36,641 nucleotides of DNA from Candidatus Woesearchaeota archaeon (GTDB taxonomy: Archaea; Nanobdellota; Nanobdellia; Woesearchaeales; UBA10216): contig JACPBX010000010.1 of NCBI GenBank assembly GCA_016180085.1, positions 1 through 36,641 of the forward strand. Reading direction: 5' to 3'. The position numbers and the translations under genes are program-made. The notes under the pieces were generated by a model. That model had not been told where the DNA came from. It did not search any database and saw nothing but the letters and a program-made list of their open reading frames with translations. Shown here one piece after another: positions 9,070-18,150 of the stretch. The stretch's first letter is position 1; each line of letters starts with the position of its first letter.

Positions 9070-9693
9070 CTAACATCCAAACTCCCCGCTAATCGGGCAA
9101 ACGGATGAAGCGTTAGCCTTCAATTTCGGAGTTCCAGGCTCTTTGCCTTTGCTTATGTAATCCTCAGCAATAGTGGTGTTCCACTCGTGCTCGTGGTTCC
9201 ACAGGTTCCAGAAGTGGCGCCATTCGTTCCAGCCAATTCCGAGATGCTTCACATAGATGCCGTTTTCAGCAAGCATCTTCCCAATCTTCCTGCCCGTCAT
9301 GCAGGGCATGCTGTAGCAGTAAACTATGATGTCCTTGTCCTTAGGCAACGCTGCAAACGCGGAAACTATCCTGTCAACGTCGCCGTAGGCTGCTGTGTTG
9401 CGGTCGCTGTATGCCGGAATGTTCACGGCGCCAACTATGTGCTCAGCCTCATATTCCTCTGCGCTGCGCAGGTCAACAAGGACATAGTCATCAACGCCCT
9501 TGTCCATCTTGCCCTTCAGGCTGTGAGGGCTGACGTGGACTGCGTTCTCTGCCAGATAAAAGCCCTTAATAAGCTCATCCTCGCTTGGTTCGGCCGGGCT
9601 TTGCACATTTAAGACCACAACTGCGGCTATTGCCCCGGATACTGCGCCTAATATTAGAGCCAGCATAAGCGTAACAGCTGCCGGTTTCATCAT
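9070..9693 (-). CDS. Exported/membrane-anchored rhodanese-domain protein ending in Cys
   Basis: N-terminal TM; 'YVLVDLRSAEEYEAEHIVGAVNIP...IIVYCYSMPCMTGRKIGKML'; C-terminus 'SSVCPISGEFGC'; ATGATG overlaps stop of OsmC gene. Confidence 0.85.
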   Translation of the reverse strand: MMKPAAVTLMLALILGAVSGAIAAVVVLNVQSPAEPSEDELIKGFYLAENAVHVSPHSLKGKMDKGVDDYVLVDLRSAEEYEAEHIVGAVNIPAYSDRNTAAYGDVDRIVSAFAALPKDKDIIVYCYSMPCMTGRKIGKMLAENGIYVKHLGIGWNEWRHFWNLWNHEHEWNTTIAEDYISKGKEPGTPKLKANASSVCPISGEFGC

Positions 9694-10247
9694 TGTGCCT
9701 CGCCTTGCGCCTCGTCTACGCTTTGGGATGCGTGCAGCTCTACACTGAGCTTTATCGGATGCGTCAGGCAATAGATGCCAGGGCACCTGCCAAGTGCAGC
9801 CTGTTCGATTTCCTTTATTTTATTTTTATCTGCGCCGCACTCCACTTCAACTGTTAACTTGGCAGATTCAACAATAGGCTCTTCGCCTAGCCCTAATGGC
9901 TTGCTCAAATTTACCTTATTTTCCGCAGCTACTTTTAGCTTGTTGAGAGGCACACCTTGCTCGGTAGCGATGTTTGCGAATGTCTGTGCAAAGCATGAGG
10001 CAAGCCCAAAGAGGCAGTATTGCACGGGATCTGGCTTAAGCGCGTGCCCACCCGTAAACGCCGGCCCGTCAGCCTCAACAAGTGTCTTGTGGTCTCCGTG
10101 CTGCAGCTCTGCACGAAACTGGGGTTTTCCGTTGCCAAAAACCCATTCGCCCTCGACCTTTTTTATTTTGACAGCCTTACTACTGTCTTTTTTCACTTCT
10201 TCAATAAAATCGGCTGCTTTCTCAACATCTATATTGTTCATGTTCAC
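9690..10247 (-). CDS. OsmC family protein
   Basis: 'PDPVQYCLFGLASCFAQTFANIATEQGV...CPGIYCLTHPIKLSVEL' OsmC pattern with both conserved Cys. Confidence 0.85.
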   Translation of the reverse strand: MNMNNIDVEKAADFIEEVKKDSSKAVKIKKVEGEWVFGNGKPQFRAELQHGDHKTLVEADGPAFTGGHALKPDPVQYCLFGLASCFAQTFANIATEQGVPLNKLKVAAENKVNLSKPLGLGEEPIVESAKLTVEVECGADKNKIKEIEQAALGRCPGIYCLTHPIKLSVELHASQSVDEAQGEAQ

Positions 10248-10278: not shown

Positions 10279-10692
10279 TTATTCGCCAGATTGTTCGCCC
10301 GGTTCGTTCAGGCTGCACCCGCTTTTATCAGCAAGCTGCCCAAAGGTCATTTCCCCTCCAACCCTGCTCTTGTCAGAAAATTCCCAGGTTGGGTAGCCCT
10401 TTATGCCTGCCTCGCTGCAAACCTGAGTCTGGCCTGCGCGGTTTGGAAGGGAGCATTCAACATAATTGACATATTTCCAGCTGCTGCCAAACATTTCCTC
10501 CTGGTTTTGGCAGTGCGGGCACCAGTAAGCGCCGTACATCTTCACGCCGTTTTCGGTAAGGCACTTTGCAAAATCGTCATACTTCCCAGGCTCTTCGGTT
10601 TTCCCGCTTTTCTGCGCGTTTATTGCCATAGCAGCAGCGAAAGCCAAAACAGCGATTATGGCAAGCAGAATCACCTGACTTTTCTTTTTCAT
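10279..10692 (-). CDS. Membrane-anchored thioredoxin-like protein (WCPHC)
   Basis: 'NGVKMYGAYWCPHCQNQEEMFG...GIKGYPTWEF'; N-terminal TM. Confidence 0.9.
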   Translation of the reverse strand: MKKKSQVILLAIIAVLAFAAAMAINAQKSGKTEEPGKYDDFAKCLTENGVKMYGAYWCPHCQNQEEMFGSSWKYVNYVECSLPNRAGQTQVCSEAGIKGYPTWEFSDKSRVGGEMTFGQLADKSGCSLNEPGEQSGE

Positions 10693-11906: not shown

Positions 11907-12530
11907 TTACCCGAACACGATATTTATCTCATCGCCATCACGGGGCATGTAATGGTTAAACTCAGTGTTTTCAACGTCGTTGACGAACATCTTCACAGTG
12001 CCATCAGGGCCGTTGCAATAGTCAAGGATGCACTCGCTGCTGAACTTTTTCTTCCAGACATCACTGAAGAAGTAGCCGAGCTGCATGTTTTTAACCGTGG
12101 GAGCCTGAACCTCCCAGTGCAGGATGTTGTCAGTTGCATGCGTGTGGACAGGCTTATGAACAGAGCCTTCAAGCCCCAAATTCGTAGGGATGGTTACCGC
12201 CTTGCCTTTAATTAGTATAGTAACATGAGGGTGCCAGTGTATTGCTCCTTTCGGAATTTTCGCAGCAAAAGCCTTTTCATCAAAGCCATCGCTGCCGCCA
12301 CCGTCGGGCGTTATTAACGGCTTGTCACCATTGCCGCCCTTTCCAGCGAAAACAAAATAGCCGCCAATAACAATTAAAGCTATAACAGCTGCAACGATAA
12401 TTTTCTTGTTCAAGCCCTTTTTCTTCGGCGCTTCCTTTGGCTGCGCGGTGTGCTTTGCCTGCTTGTGCTGTTCCAGGCTTTCAGGGCTCTGGAATTCCTT
12501 ATTGCAACCGCTGCAGAGATGTTTTTCCAT
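11907..12530 (-). CDS. C2H2 zinc finger - TM - extracytoplasmic HxH domain fusion (paralogue 2)
   Basis: 'LCSGCNKEFQSPESLEQHKQAKH' then TM, then 'IHWHPHVTILIKGKAVTIPTNLGLEGSVHKPVHTHATDNILHWEV'. Confidence 0.8.
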   Translation of the reverse strand: MEKHLCSGCNKEFQSPESLEQHKQAKHTAQPKEAPKKKGLNKKIIVAAVIALIVIGGYFVFAGKGGNGDKPLITPDGGGSDGFDEKAFAAKIPKGAIHWHPHVTILIKGKAVTIPTNLGLEGSVHKPVHTHATDNILHWEVQAPTVKNMQLGYFFSDVWKKKFSSECILDYCNGPDGTVKMFVNDVENTEFNHYMPRDGDEINIVFG

Positions 12531-12573: not shown

Positions 12574-13335
12574 CTACCCCGCCCTTTCCCTGCAGTAGCT
12601 GACAATCTTTTCCTTTGCTGAATCCAGATGCCTTGACGTGCCCTGAACAGCTGCCGCGAAACTGTCGGCTTTCATTTCATCCTCGCTTACCCTGCTGCTG
12701 TCAGGAAAATTTGCAAGCGCATAGAATGGCGAAAGCAGCCTTGCCACATAGCCCGATAGCTTGAGAACCGAAGCCCTGCCCTTTATGTGGGCAAGCTCAT
12801 GAAGCACAATCGCCTCAATCTCCTTTTTCCAAAGAATGTCAAACAGGCCTGCAGAAAGGAAAATCCTTGGCGTGAACAGCGAAAAAGAGAAGGCAACAGG
12901 CGTTGCAGTGTTAAGGATGTACAGCTTTGGCTGCCTTATCGCCAGCCCGCCAGAGTGCCTTTGCACAAGCCTGTTCCAGTGGCTGCCTTGCAGGAGGGAT
13001 GCCTTTCGGGACTGCCTTTTTACAAAGACAATCGGGGCAACCGCAAGGGCTATGACCATCGCAATGACTGCCGTGAGCCCAAGCATCGTCAGTATTGCCT
13101 TCGCCTGGTCACAGCCGGAAAAGTAGCTCTGGCACCCCCTGAAGAAGATGAAGAACAGGAACGGAAACACGAAGGCAAAAACGTGGATGTACAGAAGCGT
13201 AAGGCGCTTCTTCGTGTCAGCGGTTTTGAGCCTTCTCAGCATGACAAGCGCAGCAATCGCTATCGCAAACGACAGGATAACTATGCCCGATTTCAGAGGG
13301 CTCATGAAAAATGCCAGCGTACATTCAGTGCACAT
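12574..13335 (-). CDS. M56/M48-like membrane metalloprotease (BlaR1-type protease domain, no obvious sensor domain)
   Basis: 'IEAIVLHELAHIKGRASVLKL', TM helices; downstream of blaI-like gene. Confidence 0.8.
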   Translation of the reverse strand: MCTECTLAFFMSPLKSGIVILSFAIAIAALVMLRRLKTADTKKRLTLLYIHVFAFVFPFLFFIFFRGCQSYFSGCDQAKAILTMLGLTAVIAMVIALAVAPIVFVKRQSRKASLLQGSHWNRLVQRHSGGLAIRQPKLYILNTATPVAFSFSLFTPRIFLSAGLFDILWKKEIEAIVLHELAHIKGRASVLKLSGYVARLLSPFYALANFPDSSRVSEDEMKADSFAAAVQGTSRHLDSAKEKIVSYCRERAG

Positions 13336-13798: not shown

Positions 13799-13814
13799 TT
13801 GTAAAGCTTTACAA
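13799..13814. promoter_or_regulatory. Perfect 16-bp palindrome TTGTAAAGCTTTACAA, putative BlaI operator between divergent promoters
   Basis: Lies between a minus-strand TATA-like region (~13781-13790) and a plus-strand ATTTAAATAT (~13821-13830). Confidence 0.65.
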
Positions 13815-13870
13815 CAAAAGATTTAAATATGTGCTGTATTACAAAAGTTGCAAAGGTTGTTAAAGCTAAA

Positions 13871-14554
13871 ATGGTTCTCAAAAAAGACAACAACGCCAAG
13901 CTTCTTGTTCTGGTTGCTGTAGCTGCAGTTGTGCTGCTGCTAAACCAGTGGCAGATAATGGCCATTTCCGACCTGACAGGAGGCAGCGGAGGGTCCTCAA
14001 AAGGGACAAAACTCAACGTCAAGCTGTCAGGCGATGTTGTGCAGGACGCAATAAAGGCAGTAGTCCCAACCGGCACTCCGCTGTATGGCGCAGAACTTGG
14101 CGTGAGCTTTGATGACCCAATAAACAGCCTGAACATACTTGCCAAGCTCGACAGGCAGGTGCCAACCAACACCCTGGCAGAAGCGGAAAAAGCAAGGTTC
14201 ATCAATGTTGGAACAAGAATCAGCTGCGAGTTCTGCTGCGGCGCGCCATCCGTGGTTGACCAAAGTGGAAGAGACCTCTGCGGCTGCTCCCACGCTGCAT
14301 CGTTCAAGGGCCTTTCAAAATACCTTATTAAAAACCATCCGGGCGAGTGGAGTGATGACGAGATACTGCTTGAGCTGACAAAGTGGAAGGCGTTATATTA
14401 TCCCAAGAACATGGTCGAGAAGGCTGTAGCTGCACTGGAGAATGGCATGGAGCTCACGCCTGCAGTGCTTAACGACAGGGATTTGCTCAAGAAAATATCA
14501 GCAGGCGACACAACAAGCATCGGAGATCTCCCGTCAATGGTCGGCGGATGCTAA
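13871..14554 (+). CDS. Membrane-anchored Cys-rich protein with CEFCCG/CGC motifs and C-terminal LPSMVGGC
   Basis: N-term TM 'AKLLVLVAVAAVVLLLNQ'; 'ISCEFCCGAPSVVDQSGRDLCGCSHAASFKGLSKYLI'; ends 'SIGDLPSMVGGC'. Confidence 0.75.
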   Translation: MVLKKDNNAKLLVLVAVAAVVLLLNQWQIMAISDLTGGSGGSSKGTKLNVKLSGDVVQDAIKAVVPTGTPLYGAELGVSFDDPINSLNILAKLDRQVPTNTLAEAEKARFINVGTRISCEFCCGAPSVVDQSGRDLCGCSHAASFKGLSKYLIKNHPGEWSDDEILLELTKWKALYYPKNMVEKAVAALENGMELTPAVLNDRDLLKKISAGDTTSIGDLPSMVGGC

Positions 14555-14641
14555 GTTAGAGTGTAGGTAAAAAATCATATTCGTTGTGGCTGCTGCGGCT
14601 GCAGCGGCGAAATGAAAGCGATCATGAATGAGGTGGTAAAG

Positions 14642-14881
14642 ATGGTTGAAGCAAGCAAGATTTTGCCGGCAGTGCTGATTGCCTTAGTCCTGGTTTCTGC
14701 GGTGCAGGCGTTCCAGCTGAATTCCCTGAAGGAAAAGGTTGAGTCAGGCCAGTTTTCGGCTTCGGGAAGCTCAAAAGGGCCCGCCACCGGAGGCAGCACC
14801 GGCAGTGCAGTGGCTAGTTCTGGAAGCACAGGCGCAACCAGCAGCATCGCAGACCTTCCGCAAATGGTTGGCGGGTGCTGA
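14642..14881 (+). CDS. Small TM-linker protein ending in LPQMVGGC
   Basis: 'SKILPAVLIALVLVSAVQAF' TM, Ser/Gly/Thr linker, 'SIADLPQMVGGC' end; GAGGTGG upstream of ATG 14642. Confidence 0.75.
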   Translation: MVEASKILPAVLIALVLVSAVQAFQLNSLKEKVESGQFSASGSSKGPATGGSTGSAVASSGSTGATSSIADLPQMVGGC

Positions 14882-14927: not shown

Positions 14928-16172
14928 ATGACAGAACAAAAAAAGGCCAATGAGCATCATGCCAAGCATCACGCAGGAGAGCATTCAGGCAAGCAGCAGC
15001 ACCACCACGAAAAAGAACAAAAAGAAATTAGGATAACGCTTCCTGAAATCAAGGGCTTAAACCTGTCGGCAATTGCAACTGTCTCAGCTGTCGCCCTGCT
15101 CGTGATTGTCGTTTTCCAGGCATTCCAGGCCTTTACCCTTTCGCAAAAGCTTAATGCACTGGCGGCAGAAGCGCAGGAGCTTAACAGGCTGCCGGCAGTG
15201 CAGCTGACTGCGATTAGCGTGGAATCCTCAGTTGACTGCGAGCAGTGCACGCAGGTTGATGCCCTGATAAGCGAAGTGGAAAAGGCAAGAGCCAACATAA
15301 CGGCATCAACAGTTCTAAAAGTCAATGATGCCAGATCGCAGGAGCTAATCGACAAATACGACATTGCACGCCTGCCTGCAGTAATAATAACAGGCGAGAT
15401 TGACAAGGTAGCTATCACAGGCTTCACAAAAGTCAACGACGCACTTATATCGCAGACCCCGCCGCCTTACGTGATCCCAACAGGAAAAATCAGAGGGCTT
15501 GTGAGCCTGACATATGTGAATGTTTCCAGCTGCAGTGAGTGCCCTGACCTAATGGGTGTTGTGCAGCAGCTAAGGGCACAAATCAAAGTAGCAGACTTCA
15601 AGGCGGTTGACAAAGACAGCGAGGAAGGCAAAAAGCTTGTTGCGGAGTATGAAATGACAAGGCTGCCGGGAATCCTCCTTTCAAGCGACATCAACGAATA
15701 CTCACTGGCAGACCAGCTTGCACAGGTTGGCACTGTTAAGAAGGACGGGTTCATAGCGCTGGGCTCAAATGCCCCGTACCTGAACGTTTCTACAGGAAAG
15801 ATTACAGGCATTACGCAGCTCATACTGCTCAACGACAGCAGCTGCACTGGCTGCTATGATGTCACGATGCACGTTCCGATAGTGAGGAGATTCCAGGTAA
15901 ACCCTGCAACAATAAAAGTGACTGATGCTGCAAGCGCGGAGGGCAAAGAGCTAATCTCCAAATACAAAATAACAGCTGTGCCAACCATCCTGGTAACGGG
16001 CGATGTTTCGCCCTACGAGCAGCTTCTTGGCATCTGGCCAACTGTTGGGACAACAGAAAAGGATGGCGCATTGGTCTTCAGGACCATGAGCGCAATCTCC
16101 GGAAGCCCCTATAAGGACCTGCAGACAGGAAAGTTAGAATCAAACCTGCCACAGCAAACACAGCAGCAGTAG
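14928..16172 (+). CDS. Membrane-anchored protein with three tandem thioredoxin-like domains and a His-rich N-terminus
   Basis: Three repeats with CEQC, CSEC, CTGC, each followed by 'KYxIxxLP'-type cis-Pro segments (RLPAVIITG, RLPGILLSS, AVPTILVTG); N-term 'HHAKHHAGEHSGKQQHHH' then TM. Confidence 0.8.
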   Translation: MTEQKKANEHHAKHHAGEHSGKQQHHHEKEQKEIRITLPEIKGLNLSAIATVSAVALLVIVVFQAFQAFTLSQKLNALAAEAQELNRLPAVQLTAISVESSVDCEQCTQVDALISEVEKARANITASTVLKVNDARSQELIDKYDIARLPAVIITGEIDKVAITGFTKVNDALISQTPPPYVIPTGKIRGLVSLTYVNVSSCSECPDLMGVVQQLRAQIKVADFKAVDKDSEEGKKLVAEYEMTRLPGILLSSDINEYSLADQLAQVGTVKKDGFIALGSNAPYLNVSTGKITGITQLILLNDSSCTGCYDVTMHVPIVRRFQVNPATIKVTDAASAEGKELISKYKITAVPTILVTGDVSPYEQLLGIWPTVGTTEKDGALVFRTMSAISGSPYKDLQTGKLESNLPQQTQQQ

Positions 16173-17062: not shown

Positions 17063-17443
17063 TCAAGCCAAGTCCCTATGTGTCTCATACATAAAGGCTG
17101 CGTGTGTGTTGTGCTTTTTTAGTTCCTTTGTTAACAGCCTTGCAATGTCCTTAGACTGCATTTCCTTCTTCCTGTGAACGTGCTTGGTAACTGTTTTCGC
17201 GACTGCACCGGCAATTCGTTCGCATTCCCTCTCATTCATTAGGACAACGTAGCACGCGGCGTAGGCCGAGCCGTAAACCTTGCGCTCATCATAGCCCTCG
17301 CACAGGCCTGTAGCGCGCTTCACCACGCAGTGCACGCCCTCGCTGTGGCCGTGCTTCTGCTGTTTCTGCTTAACCTGCAATGATTTTAGCTCCCTCGCCC
17401 TGCTTTCTGCCCTGTAAACTGCCATTTTTACCATTCCAGTCAC
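17063..17443 (-). CDS. ATP-cone-like domain protein
   Basis: 'CVVKRATGLCEGYDERKVYGSAYAACYVVLMNERECERIAGAVAKTVTKHV...SKDIARLLTKELKKHNTHAAFMYETHRDLA'. Confidence 0.65.
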   Translation of the reverse strand: MTGMVKMAVYRAESRARELKSLQVKQKQQKHGHSEGVHCVVKRATGLCEGYDERKVYGSAYAACYVVLMNERECERIAGAVAKTVTKHVHRKKEMQSKDIARLLTKELKKHNTHAAFMYETHRDLA

Positions 17444-18150
17444 CCCAGGTTTACCGTGCCGTTGGCTATAAGCATGAGCAGCCAGCCCATCGCTACCAGA
17501 AGCAGGCCTATGAGCAGCCTAATTGCGCCCCTGCTTTCCTGCTTCCACTTCTTAACCTCGTGAAGCCTCTTCCCGGCTGCGACCATGATAAGTATTACGA
17601 TTAGCGGCGCTACAAAGATAATGTTGTAAAGCACCAGCATAAGGAATGCTGAAAAGTCGAAGTATTGTGAAAGAAGCGTGATAATGGCAAGGTAGGGAGC
17701 GCCAGTGCATGGCAGCTCAACACCTGCCACAAACGCGCCAAGCAGCATAATGCCCGGAATAGTGACCTTTGACGCGTAGCCATGCAGCTTTTTGGCAAAA
17801 AGTGGCGGGATGGCAAGCGAAAACCATCTTCCATACCAGAAGTAGTCCTTTACCTCGAAAAGGCCTGCAATGATTATGATGGTGCCAACTGCAATGGCGA
17901 TGTATTCGCTCAGATATAATGGCAACCCTGAAAGGAAGTACATCAGCCCAAGCCCTGCGAGCAGGTAAGTCACGAACACTGCAAAAATGTAAAGCCCTCC
18001 CAGAAGCAGCATCTTTTTCGTTGACTGGTGGGTTGCCAGCAGCACAGAGATCATCAGTATAAGGACACCTATGGCGCATGGATTAATTGAGTCAATAGCA
18101 GCAGCACCCGCTACTGTTACCAGGGTTGGAAGGTAAGCCTCAACTGCCAT
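17440..18150 (-). CDS. CcdA-like thiol-disulfide transporter (second copy, shorter)
   Basis: 'AAIDSINPCAIGVLILMI', 'GAFVAGVELPCTGAPYLAII', multi-TM. Confidence 0.85.
   Translation of the reverse strand: MAVEAYLPTLVTVAGAAAIDSINPCAIGVLILMISVLLATHQSTKKMLLLGGLYIFAVFVTYLLAGLGLMYFLSGLPLYLSEYIAIAVGTIIIIAGLFEVKDYFWYGRWFSLAIPPLFAKKLHGYASKVTIPGIMLLGAFVAGVELPCTGAPYLAIITLLSQYFDFSAFLMLVLYNIIFVAPLIVILIMVAAGKRLHEVKKWKQESRGAIRLLIGLLLVAMGWLLMLIANGTVNLG

Follow-up and report, generated by a model that had tools for sequence, protein, structure and literature searches.

PacL1 and PacL2 are DUF1490 metallochaperones of the M. tuberculosis effluxosomes; they are small, have a single transmembrane (TM) helix with conserved residues and an extended domain, and lie beside metal machinery (PMC13043812). 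A similar description would fit mini-protein B, encoded next to protein A in the window, i.e., the whole stretch of 36,641 nucleotides of a Candidatus Woesearchaeota archaeon that was analysed. B also resembles PacL1 in carrying a short motif at the very C-terminus, which in PacL1 is metal-binding (PMC13043812). However, PacL1 ends in DLHDHDH, faces the cytosol, contains AE repeats and pairs with P-ATPases (PMC13043812), whereas B ends in VGGC with one cysteine, is predicted to face outward, and has A and thioredoxin-fold proteins as its companions. A comparison of B with Pfam gave no DUF1490 match. A second similarity is to SoxY, in which an extracytoplasmic cysteine flanked by glycines is located on a flexible C-terminus, and this arm visits several enzymes (PMC6067878). 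Unlike SoxY, B has no folded SoxY domain and no GGCGG, is tethered to the membrane and has the cysteine as its last residue. A SoxY domain was matched in neither A nor B by Pfam or NCBIfam models, and inspection of the recurrent neighbour clusters revealed no recognisable Sox partner genes (SoxZ, SoxB, or SoxAX).

The third group for comparison comprises CopG (DUF411) and the TlpA–ScoI–PCuAC copper assembly, in which copper and CuA proteins are handled by proteins with a thioredoxin fold and by thiol reductants tethered to the membrane (PMC7558416). CopG is a direct neighbour of A and B in the second of two cluster types described below, but A and B themselves match none of these families, and A is without a detectable homologue of known structure. 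In the C-terminal Cys/Sec arms of thioredoxin reductases, the reactive residue lies at or next to the mobile C-terminal end. DsrC/TusE likewise carry a reactive cysteine in the final or penultimate position of a mobile C-terminal end (PMC3397948). However, these proteins are cytosolic folded carriers or enzymes rather than membrane tethers, and their motif differs. Judged by its architecture, B would work like the arms of PacL1, SoxY and DsrC, but by Pfam matches and motif it is a member of none of these families.

Few cells are understood as poorly as those of DPANN archaea and CPR bacteria. The pairing of A and B recurs in many archaea and some ultra-small bacteria beside thioredoxin and copper-handling genes, and for this reason it would appear to be a cysteine "arm", not described before, in a redox system of copper and thiols. 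CuA "NosZ-like" proteins have been published from DPANN archaea (PMC10936187). The pair, which is conserved, cross-domain, of unknown fold and with an invariant terminal cysteine, lies divergent from a CopY-type repressor, has CcdA, thioredoxin, CopG and CuA genes on its flanks, and is a concrete candidate for the assembly route of such proteins. We know of no assembly route described for the DPANN CuA proteins. The pair may also represent a minimal case of peptide-borne cysteine transfer, in which four residues on a string may do all the work, and the function of the tail can therefore be probed by single substitutions.

Genes A and B and their shared C-terminus

A and B are unrelated membrane-anchored neighbours, and both terminate in Met-Val-Gly-Gly-Cys. 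Protein A (13871–14554, + strand, 227 aa) consists of an N-terminal TM anchor, a helical domain with an invariant CxxCC...CxCxH and the C-terminal tail LPSMVGGC (14528–14551, + strand; VGGC at 14540–14551); it ends in SIGDLPSMVGGC, followed by the stop codon TAA at 14552–14554. The C-terminus of mini-protein B (14642–14881, + strand, 79 aa) is SIADLPQMVGGC, with the stop codon TGA at 14879–14881, and its tail, read from the ORF translation, is LPQMVGGC (14855–14878, + strand). The initial annotation had described an LPxMVGGC tail common to both genes and a second gene made only of anchor, linker and tail. Both descriptions hold: B is composed of one hydrophobic TM helix with QAFQL at its end, a low-complexity stretch rich in S/G/A/T and the tail, which contains its single cysteine. 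The shared tail is real and far beyond chance; in the genome of the window (1.0 Mb, 45 contigs), A and B are the only long ORFs ending in GGC. Longer in-frame ATG starts are available at 13829 for A and 14612 for B, and the starts at 13871 and 14642 match the homologue alignments. A promoter-like TTTAAATA lies near 13822, upstream of 13871.

All 118 distinct B sequences, a set partly chosen by the tail pattern, contain exactly one cysteine after the TM helix, and the linker spans 23–58 residues rich in S/G/A/T/P. The charges flanking the helix (+1.7 vs. +0.7) weakly favour an N-in/C-out orientation, which would make the tail extracytoplasmic. B matches no Pfam or NCBIfam family. No relatives of A were detected in Pfam, NCBIfam, or PDB, the last searched by sequence and by fold, and A is, as far as such comparisons can tell, an undescribed family. 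Its alignment with homologues shows six invariant residues, C119, C122, C123, C137, C139 and H141, and this Cys/His cluster is probably a metal site. An AF2 model of A from the window places it in a confident helical domain (mean pLDDT 86.8). Several families were considered as relatives of A and rejected. For PCYCGC (PF13798), the hhalign probability was 1.8% and there was no Pfam match; for CopG it was below 1%, with no DUF411 domain in A or B; and profile comparison with the Met-rich, HCPLC, HWHxH and c8 families was negative.

Conservation and distribution of the tail

A degenerate DNA pattern for MVGGC followed by a stop codon was present in 100 of 380 genomes of the phylum, mostly as two to three copies per cluster a few hundred bases apart, whereas the same pattern read backwards gave three matches in total. 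In CPR bacteria, the pattern occurred in 16 of 382 genomes; in 13 of them there were matching ORFs, all of which were A or B, and the other three matches had no corresponding ORF of at least 25 aa. Every MVGGC ORF read out in the phylum and CPR loci was A or B, and none of them belonged to another protein. The A–B pair is present in Aenigmatarchaeota as well. The tail is conserved as protein and not as DNA, since the number of codon strings that encode it is 45 among 82 distinct A sequences and 63 among the 118 distinct B sequences, the A set also being partly chosen by the tail pattern. A text search of open-access literature gave no paper on a C-terminal VGGC tail with its cysteine in archaea.

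Since many loci were picked by the tail pattern itself, the fair test of conservation is provided by the loci collected via A. Loss of the tail in orthologues had been named beforehand as a refuting outcome; instead, each of the 26 loci gathered by their A gene, with no use made of the tail, contained B, in which V76, G77, G78 and C79 were invariant, as was Q22 in the TM region. A was encoded in 40/40 tail-bearing and 1/40 tail-negative genomes. In this single exception (G028; L213, G028:C30), both A and B end in QVGGC. Methionine is replaced by glutamine also in L045, so it is not an obligatory copper ligand. The tails of the two proteins agree on the presence of LP in 80 of 82 loci (both with LP in 51, neither in 29, two discordant).

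Not every A carries the tail. In CPR and some Aenigmatarchaeota loci found via A, it is absent from A and B keeps VGGC, which indicates that A is able to work without its own tail; in other CPR genomes, A has the tail as well. In several of the tailless A proteins (L041, L043, L044, L046 and L048, from CPR and one Aenigmatarchaeota), the N-terminal half is a membrane domain with CPxC. This domain gave no convincing Pfam match and no PDB match in CPR A, and its structure model was weak.

Gene neighbourhoods and genome content

A profile search of 107 loci showed that A adjoins B almost everywhere and that the clusters fall into two subtypes. In type I, to which the window belongs, the order is A, B with LPxMVGGC and a triple thioredoxin (TriTrx). 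Often found with them are CcdA, Trx13, a small lipoprotein with GGGCG and His-rich proteins of the HWHxH kind, as well as an M56 protease together with a BlaI/CopY repressor encoded divergently. In type II, the order is a membrane winged-helix-turn-helix (wHTH) regulator (DUF7343-like), A, B in one or two copies that have no LP, CopG (DUF411), HCPLC and c8 membrane proteins, with CuA, CopA, PCYCGC and DUF5676 nearby. TriTrx lies within 2.5 kb of 61/72 LP-type B but only 2/47 non-LP B (p = 8e-20), and CopG or a CopG-like fusion lies beside 28/47 non-LP and 4/72 LP-type B (p = 7e-11); these tests ignore shared ancestry, and because A and B are co-inherited, the p-values overstate independence. 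The CopG neighbours of non-LP B mostly contain the motif CGCC...SCHT...EGHVP. Within 7 kb, CcdA accompanies 50/72 LP-type and 4/47 other B, and the CopA ATPase is found at 14/47 non-LP and 4/72 LP-type B. Type I clusters have fewer copper genes in their vicinity than type II clusters. At the CopG position of two type II clusters (L121:8690-9922 and L148:1162-2379), a CopG-like domain and a membrane domain similar to SfLAP/CcdA are apparently fused into one protein.

In the window, TriTrx (14928–16172, + strand) has a TM anchor and three thioredoxin-like domains, each with CxxC. It belongs among the thioredoxin-fold proteins, as it matches Thioredoxin_3 (2e-10), PDO_seleno_TRX (2e-11) and PDO entries of PDB and has six cysteines in three CxxC motifs. 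Divergent from A lies a BlaI/CopY-family repressor gene (PF03965; 13406–13756, − strand), and between divergent TATA-like boxes there is a palindrome, TGTAAAGCTTTACA (13800–13813). It is identical in seven near relatives, and TGTA/TACA palindromes occur in 11 of 17 BlaI–A intergenic regions, compared with a background of 0.026 per 200 bp; TGTAAAGCTTTACA is the probable operator of the BlaI/CopY-type repressor. Further on the − strand are an M56/M48-like membrane metalloprotease, the likely partner of the repressor (12574–13335), a His-rich (HWHxH) membrane-anchored protein of unknown function that is a recurrent neighbour (11907–12530), a CcdA/DsbD-type transmembrane thiol-electron transporter (PF02683; 10729–11904) and a member of the Trx13 family, thioredoxin-like secreted or membrane-anchored proteins with CxxC (10279–10692). 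The same strand encodes an OsmC-like protein (PF02566, 1e-15; 9690–10247), rare elsewhere, a membrane-anchored rhodanese-domain protein (PF00581, 4e-15; 9070–9786), a PCYCGC-motif protein (PF13798; 5561–6172), whose family recurs in type II clusters, and an SfLAP/CcdA-like multi-TM protein (17440–18150), a relative of which, in some type II clusters, carries a fused CopG-like domain. The possibility that the tail is a target of the M56 protease was discarded, since M56 is missing from the surroundings of most type II clusters.

The association with thioredoxin and copper genes extends to genome content, compared in 80 near-complete genomes, 40 with the tail and 40 without. TriTrx was present in 28/40 tail-bearing and 5/40 tail-free genomes, and in four genomes it was found without A or a VGGC stub. 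DUF411/CopG, counted with the curated Pfam model, was found in 27/40 vs. 1/40, and COX2/CuA in 21/40 vs. 5/40. The control family OsmC (one tail-bearing and no tail-free genome) gave no such pattern. A random placement of the tail relative to thioredoxin genes, which would have spoken against the original idea, is not what the loci (61/72 vs. 2/47) or the genomes (28/40 vs. 5/40) display. The link with copper had not been foreseen. In one tail-free genome (G061), a similar membrane wHTH gene lies beside CopA, CopG and a PCYCGC-like protein, which indicates that the type II A–B genes belong to an apparent copper regulon. The wHTH protein of this locus (L218, G061:C8), encoded between CopG and a copper ATPase, is membrane-anchored with cysteines in its loop and is a candidate external copper sensor.

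Possible function of the tail

It is proposed, with a probability of about one half, that A and B offer an extracytoplasmic cysteine peptide to a common thioredoxin-fold partner in a thiol/copper pathway and that the tail acts as the carrier. A and B would be two membrane-anchored parts of one extracytoplasmic pathway, each presenting x-VGGC-COOH to this partner. B would be a bare cysteine on a tether, with the helix as anchor and a flexible linker leading to the single cysteine at the end, and A would contribute the Cys/His cluster and, in most lineages, a copy of the peptide as well. For type I, where the peptide is extended to LPxMVGGC, the partner might be TriTrx, and for type II it might be CopG. 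Transporters of the CcdA/DsbD type would pass on cytosolic reducing equivalents, so that the cysteines stay reduced, and A and the thioredoxin-fold protein would exchange reducing equivalents, and probably also Cu(I), by way of the tail, from where the route could lead onward to CuA cupredoxins or to export by CopA. The conserved tail, its concordant form on A and B, their near-obligate pairing and the linkage to thioredoxin-fold, CcdA and copper genes are observations, whereas the outward topology, the docking on a thioredoxin-fold partner, the load (Cu(I) or electrons) and the way in which it moves are inferred. The proposal builds on the same cysteine peptide on A and B, on the extension that tracks the thioredoxin-fold neighbour, and on the copper and CcdA company of the genes. 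Published precedents are CopG, which has a thioredoxin fold and a Cu4 cluster bridged by cysteines, and TlpA-type thioredoxins, which reduce the cysteines of CuA before metal insertion (PMC7558416). Against the proposal stand the four genomes with TriTrx but neither A nor a VGGC stub, the tailless A proteins, the weak charge bias around the TM helix and the smaller number of copper genes in type I clusters. A presentation of the tail to the triple thioredoxin, suggested in the initial annotation, agrees with the tracking of LP with TriTrx, and so does the idea of a docking tail, while a redox-active tail, also suggested there, would suit the gene context; however, the VGGC core exists where TriTrx is absent, in the second subtype with CopG as neighbour, and TriTrx is therefore not the sole partner. 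In a more tentative version, B would lend VGGC in trans both to A, as a new-fold Cys/His metalloprotein, and to thioredoxin-fold partners, together forming an undescribed copper/thiol machine of DPANN and CPR.

The strongest rival is that the tail of B completes the metal site of A. According to this possible but rather unlikely explanation, VGGC inserts into A as a ligand of the Cys/His site, in cis from the tail of A or in trans from that of B, which would be the sole option where A is tailless; B would be a tethered metal-site subunit and not a shuttle. It is supported by the presence of B with A nearly everywhere examined, including CPR with tailless A, and by the M-to-Q replacement common to both proteins in G028. 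The AF2 model points in the same direction. The pLDDT at the tail of A from the window is 81–85 (85 at the MVGGC end), whereas a CPR A that lacks the tail and has an unrelated C-terminus reaches 49 there; this hints that MVGGC may pack on A and would suit a docked tail better than a free arm. However, the LP extension tracks the kind of thioredoxin-fold protein encoded nearby, which points to a partner distinct from A. Moreover, G056, a genome that has no A, encodes a diverged B-like stub ending in ELPPLYAGGVACPYT (L216:3309-3518) with a triple thioredoxin immediately downstream.

The adjacency of TriTrx and CcdA, with a single cysteine on a flexible tether, could be read as a pure electron relay, in which B is a one-cysteine disulfide partner passing electrons from CcdA and TriTrx to secreted proteins and copper is incidental. 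This is unlikely, as CopG, CuA and CopA are enriched, and type II clusters are without TriTrx (2/47 non-LP B near one) and mostly without CcdA.

Still less probable is a sulfane-sulfur carrier, with the terminal cysteine as a persulfide swinging arm, loaded by a rhodanese-like protein and unloaded by a thioredoxin. The sulfur of SoxY is carried on the cysteine of a C-terminal GGCGG (PMC6067878) and that of DsrC on the penultimate cysteine (PMC3397948). A membrane-anchored rhodanese protein is encoded in the window, some twelve loci encode likely relatives, two of them apparently as fusions with an HCPLC membrane domain, and type I clusters repeatedly contain a third mini-protein, marked by [VY]GGGCG. 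However, no Sox, Dsr or Hdr-like enzyme was recognised among the recurring neighbour families, and the copper families profiled across genomes (DUF411/CopG and COX2/CuA) track the tail. The rhodanese protein of the window (9070–9786, − strand) itself ends in Gly-Cys (SVCPISGEFGC). The third mini-protein (L171:6705-6920 on the − strand, L035:9002-9238, L135:2312-2479 and 15 others) has a lipobox or TM anchor, a low-complexity stretch and the conserved motif, which in two cases is at the very C-terminus (GGGGCGR), and it resembles the SoxY arm and B.

A sorting or lipidation signal similar to LPXTG or PGF-CTERM, or a prenylated terminal cysteine, was suggested by the exact C-terminal placement and by LP in one subtype, but it is highly improbable and is rejected on the architecture of A and B: the motif is the extreme C-terminus with no TM segment or basic cluster after it, both proteins are already TM-anchored, a whole subtype is without LP, A and B are the sole carriers among the MVGGC ORFs read out, and no sortase or transferase family recurs among the surveyed neighbours.

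It is also worth mentioning that in many type II B proteins (L101, L103, L081, L085 and others) the tail is preceded by a conserved Met/His segment, GWTENEIMNYEMHGTIPAR or YEEMMARMHPEQ, which looks as if it could bind metal.
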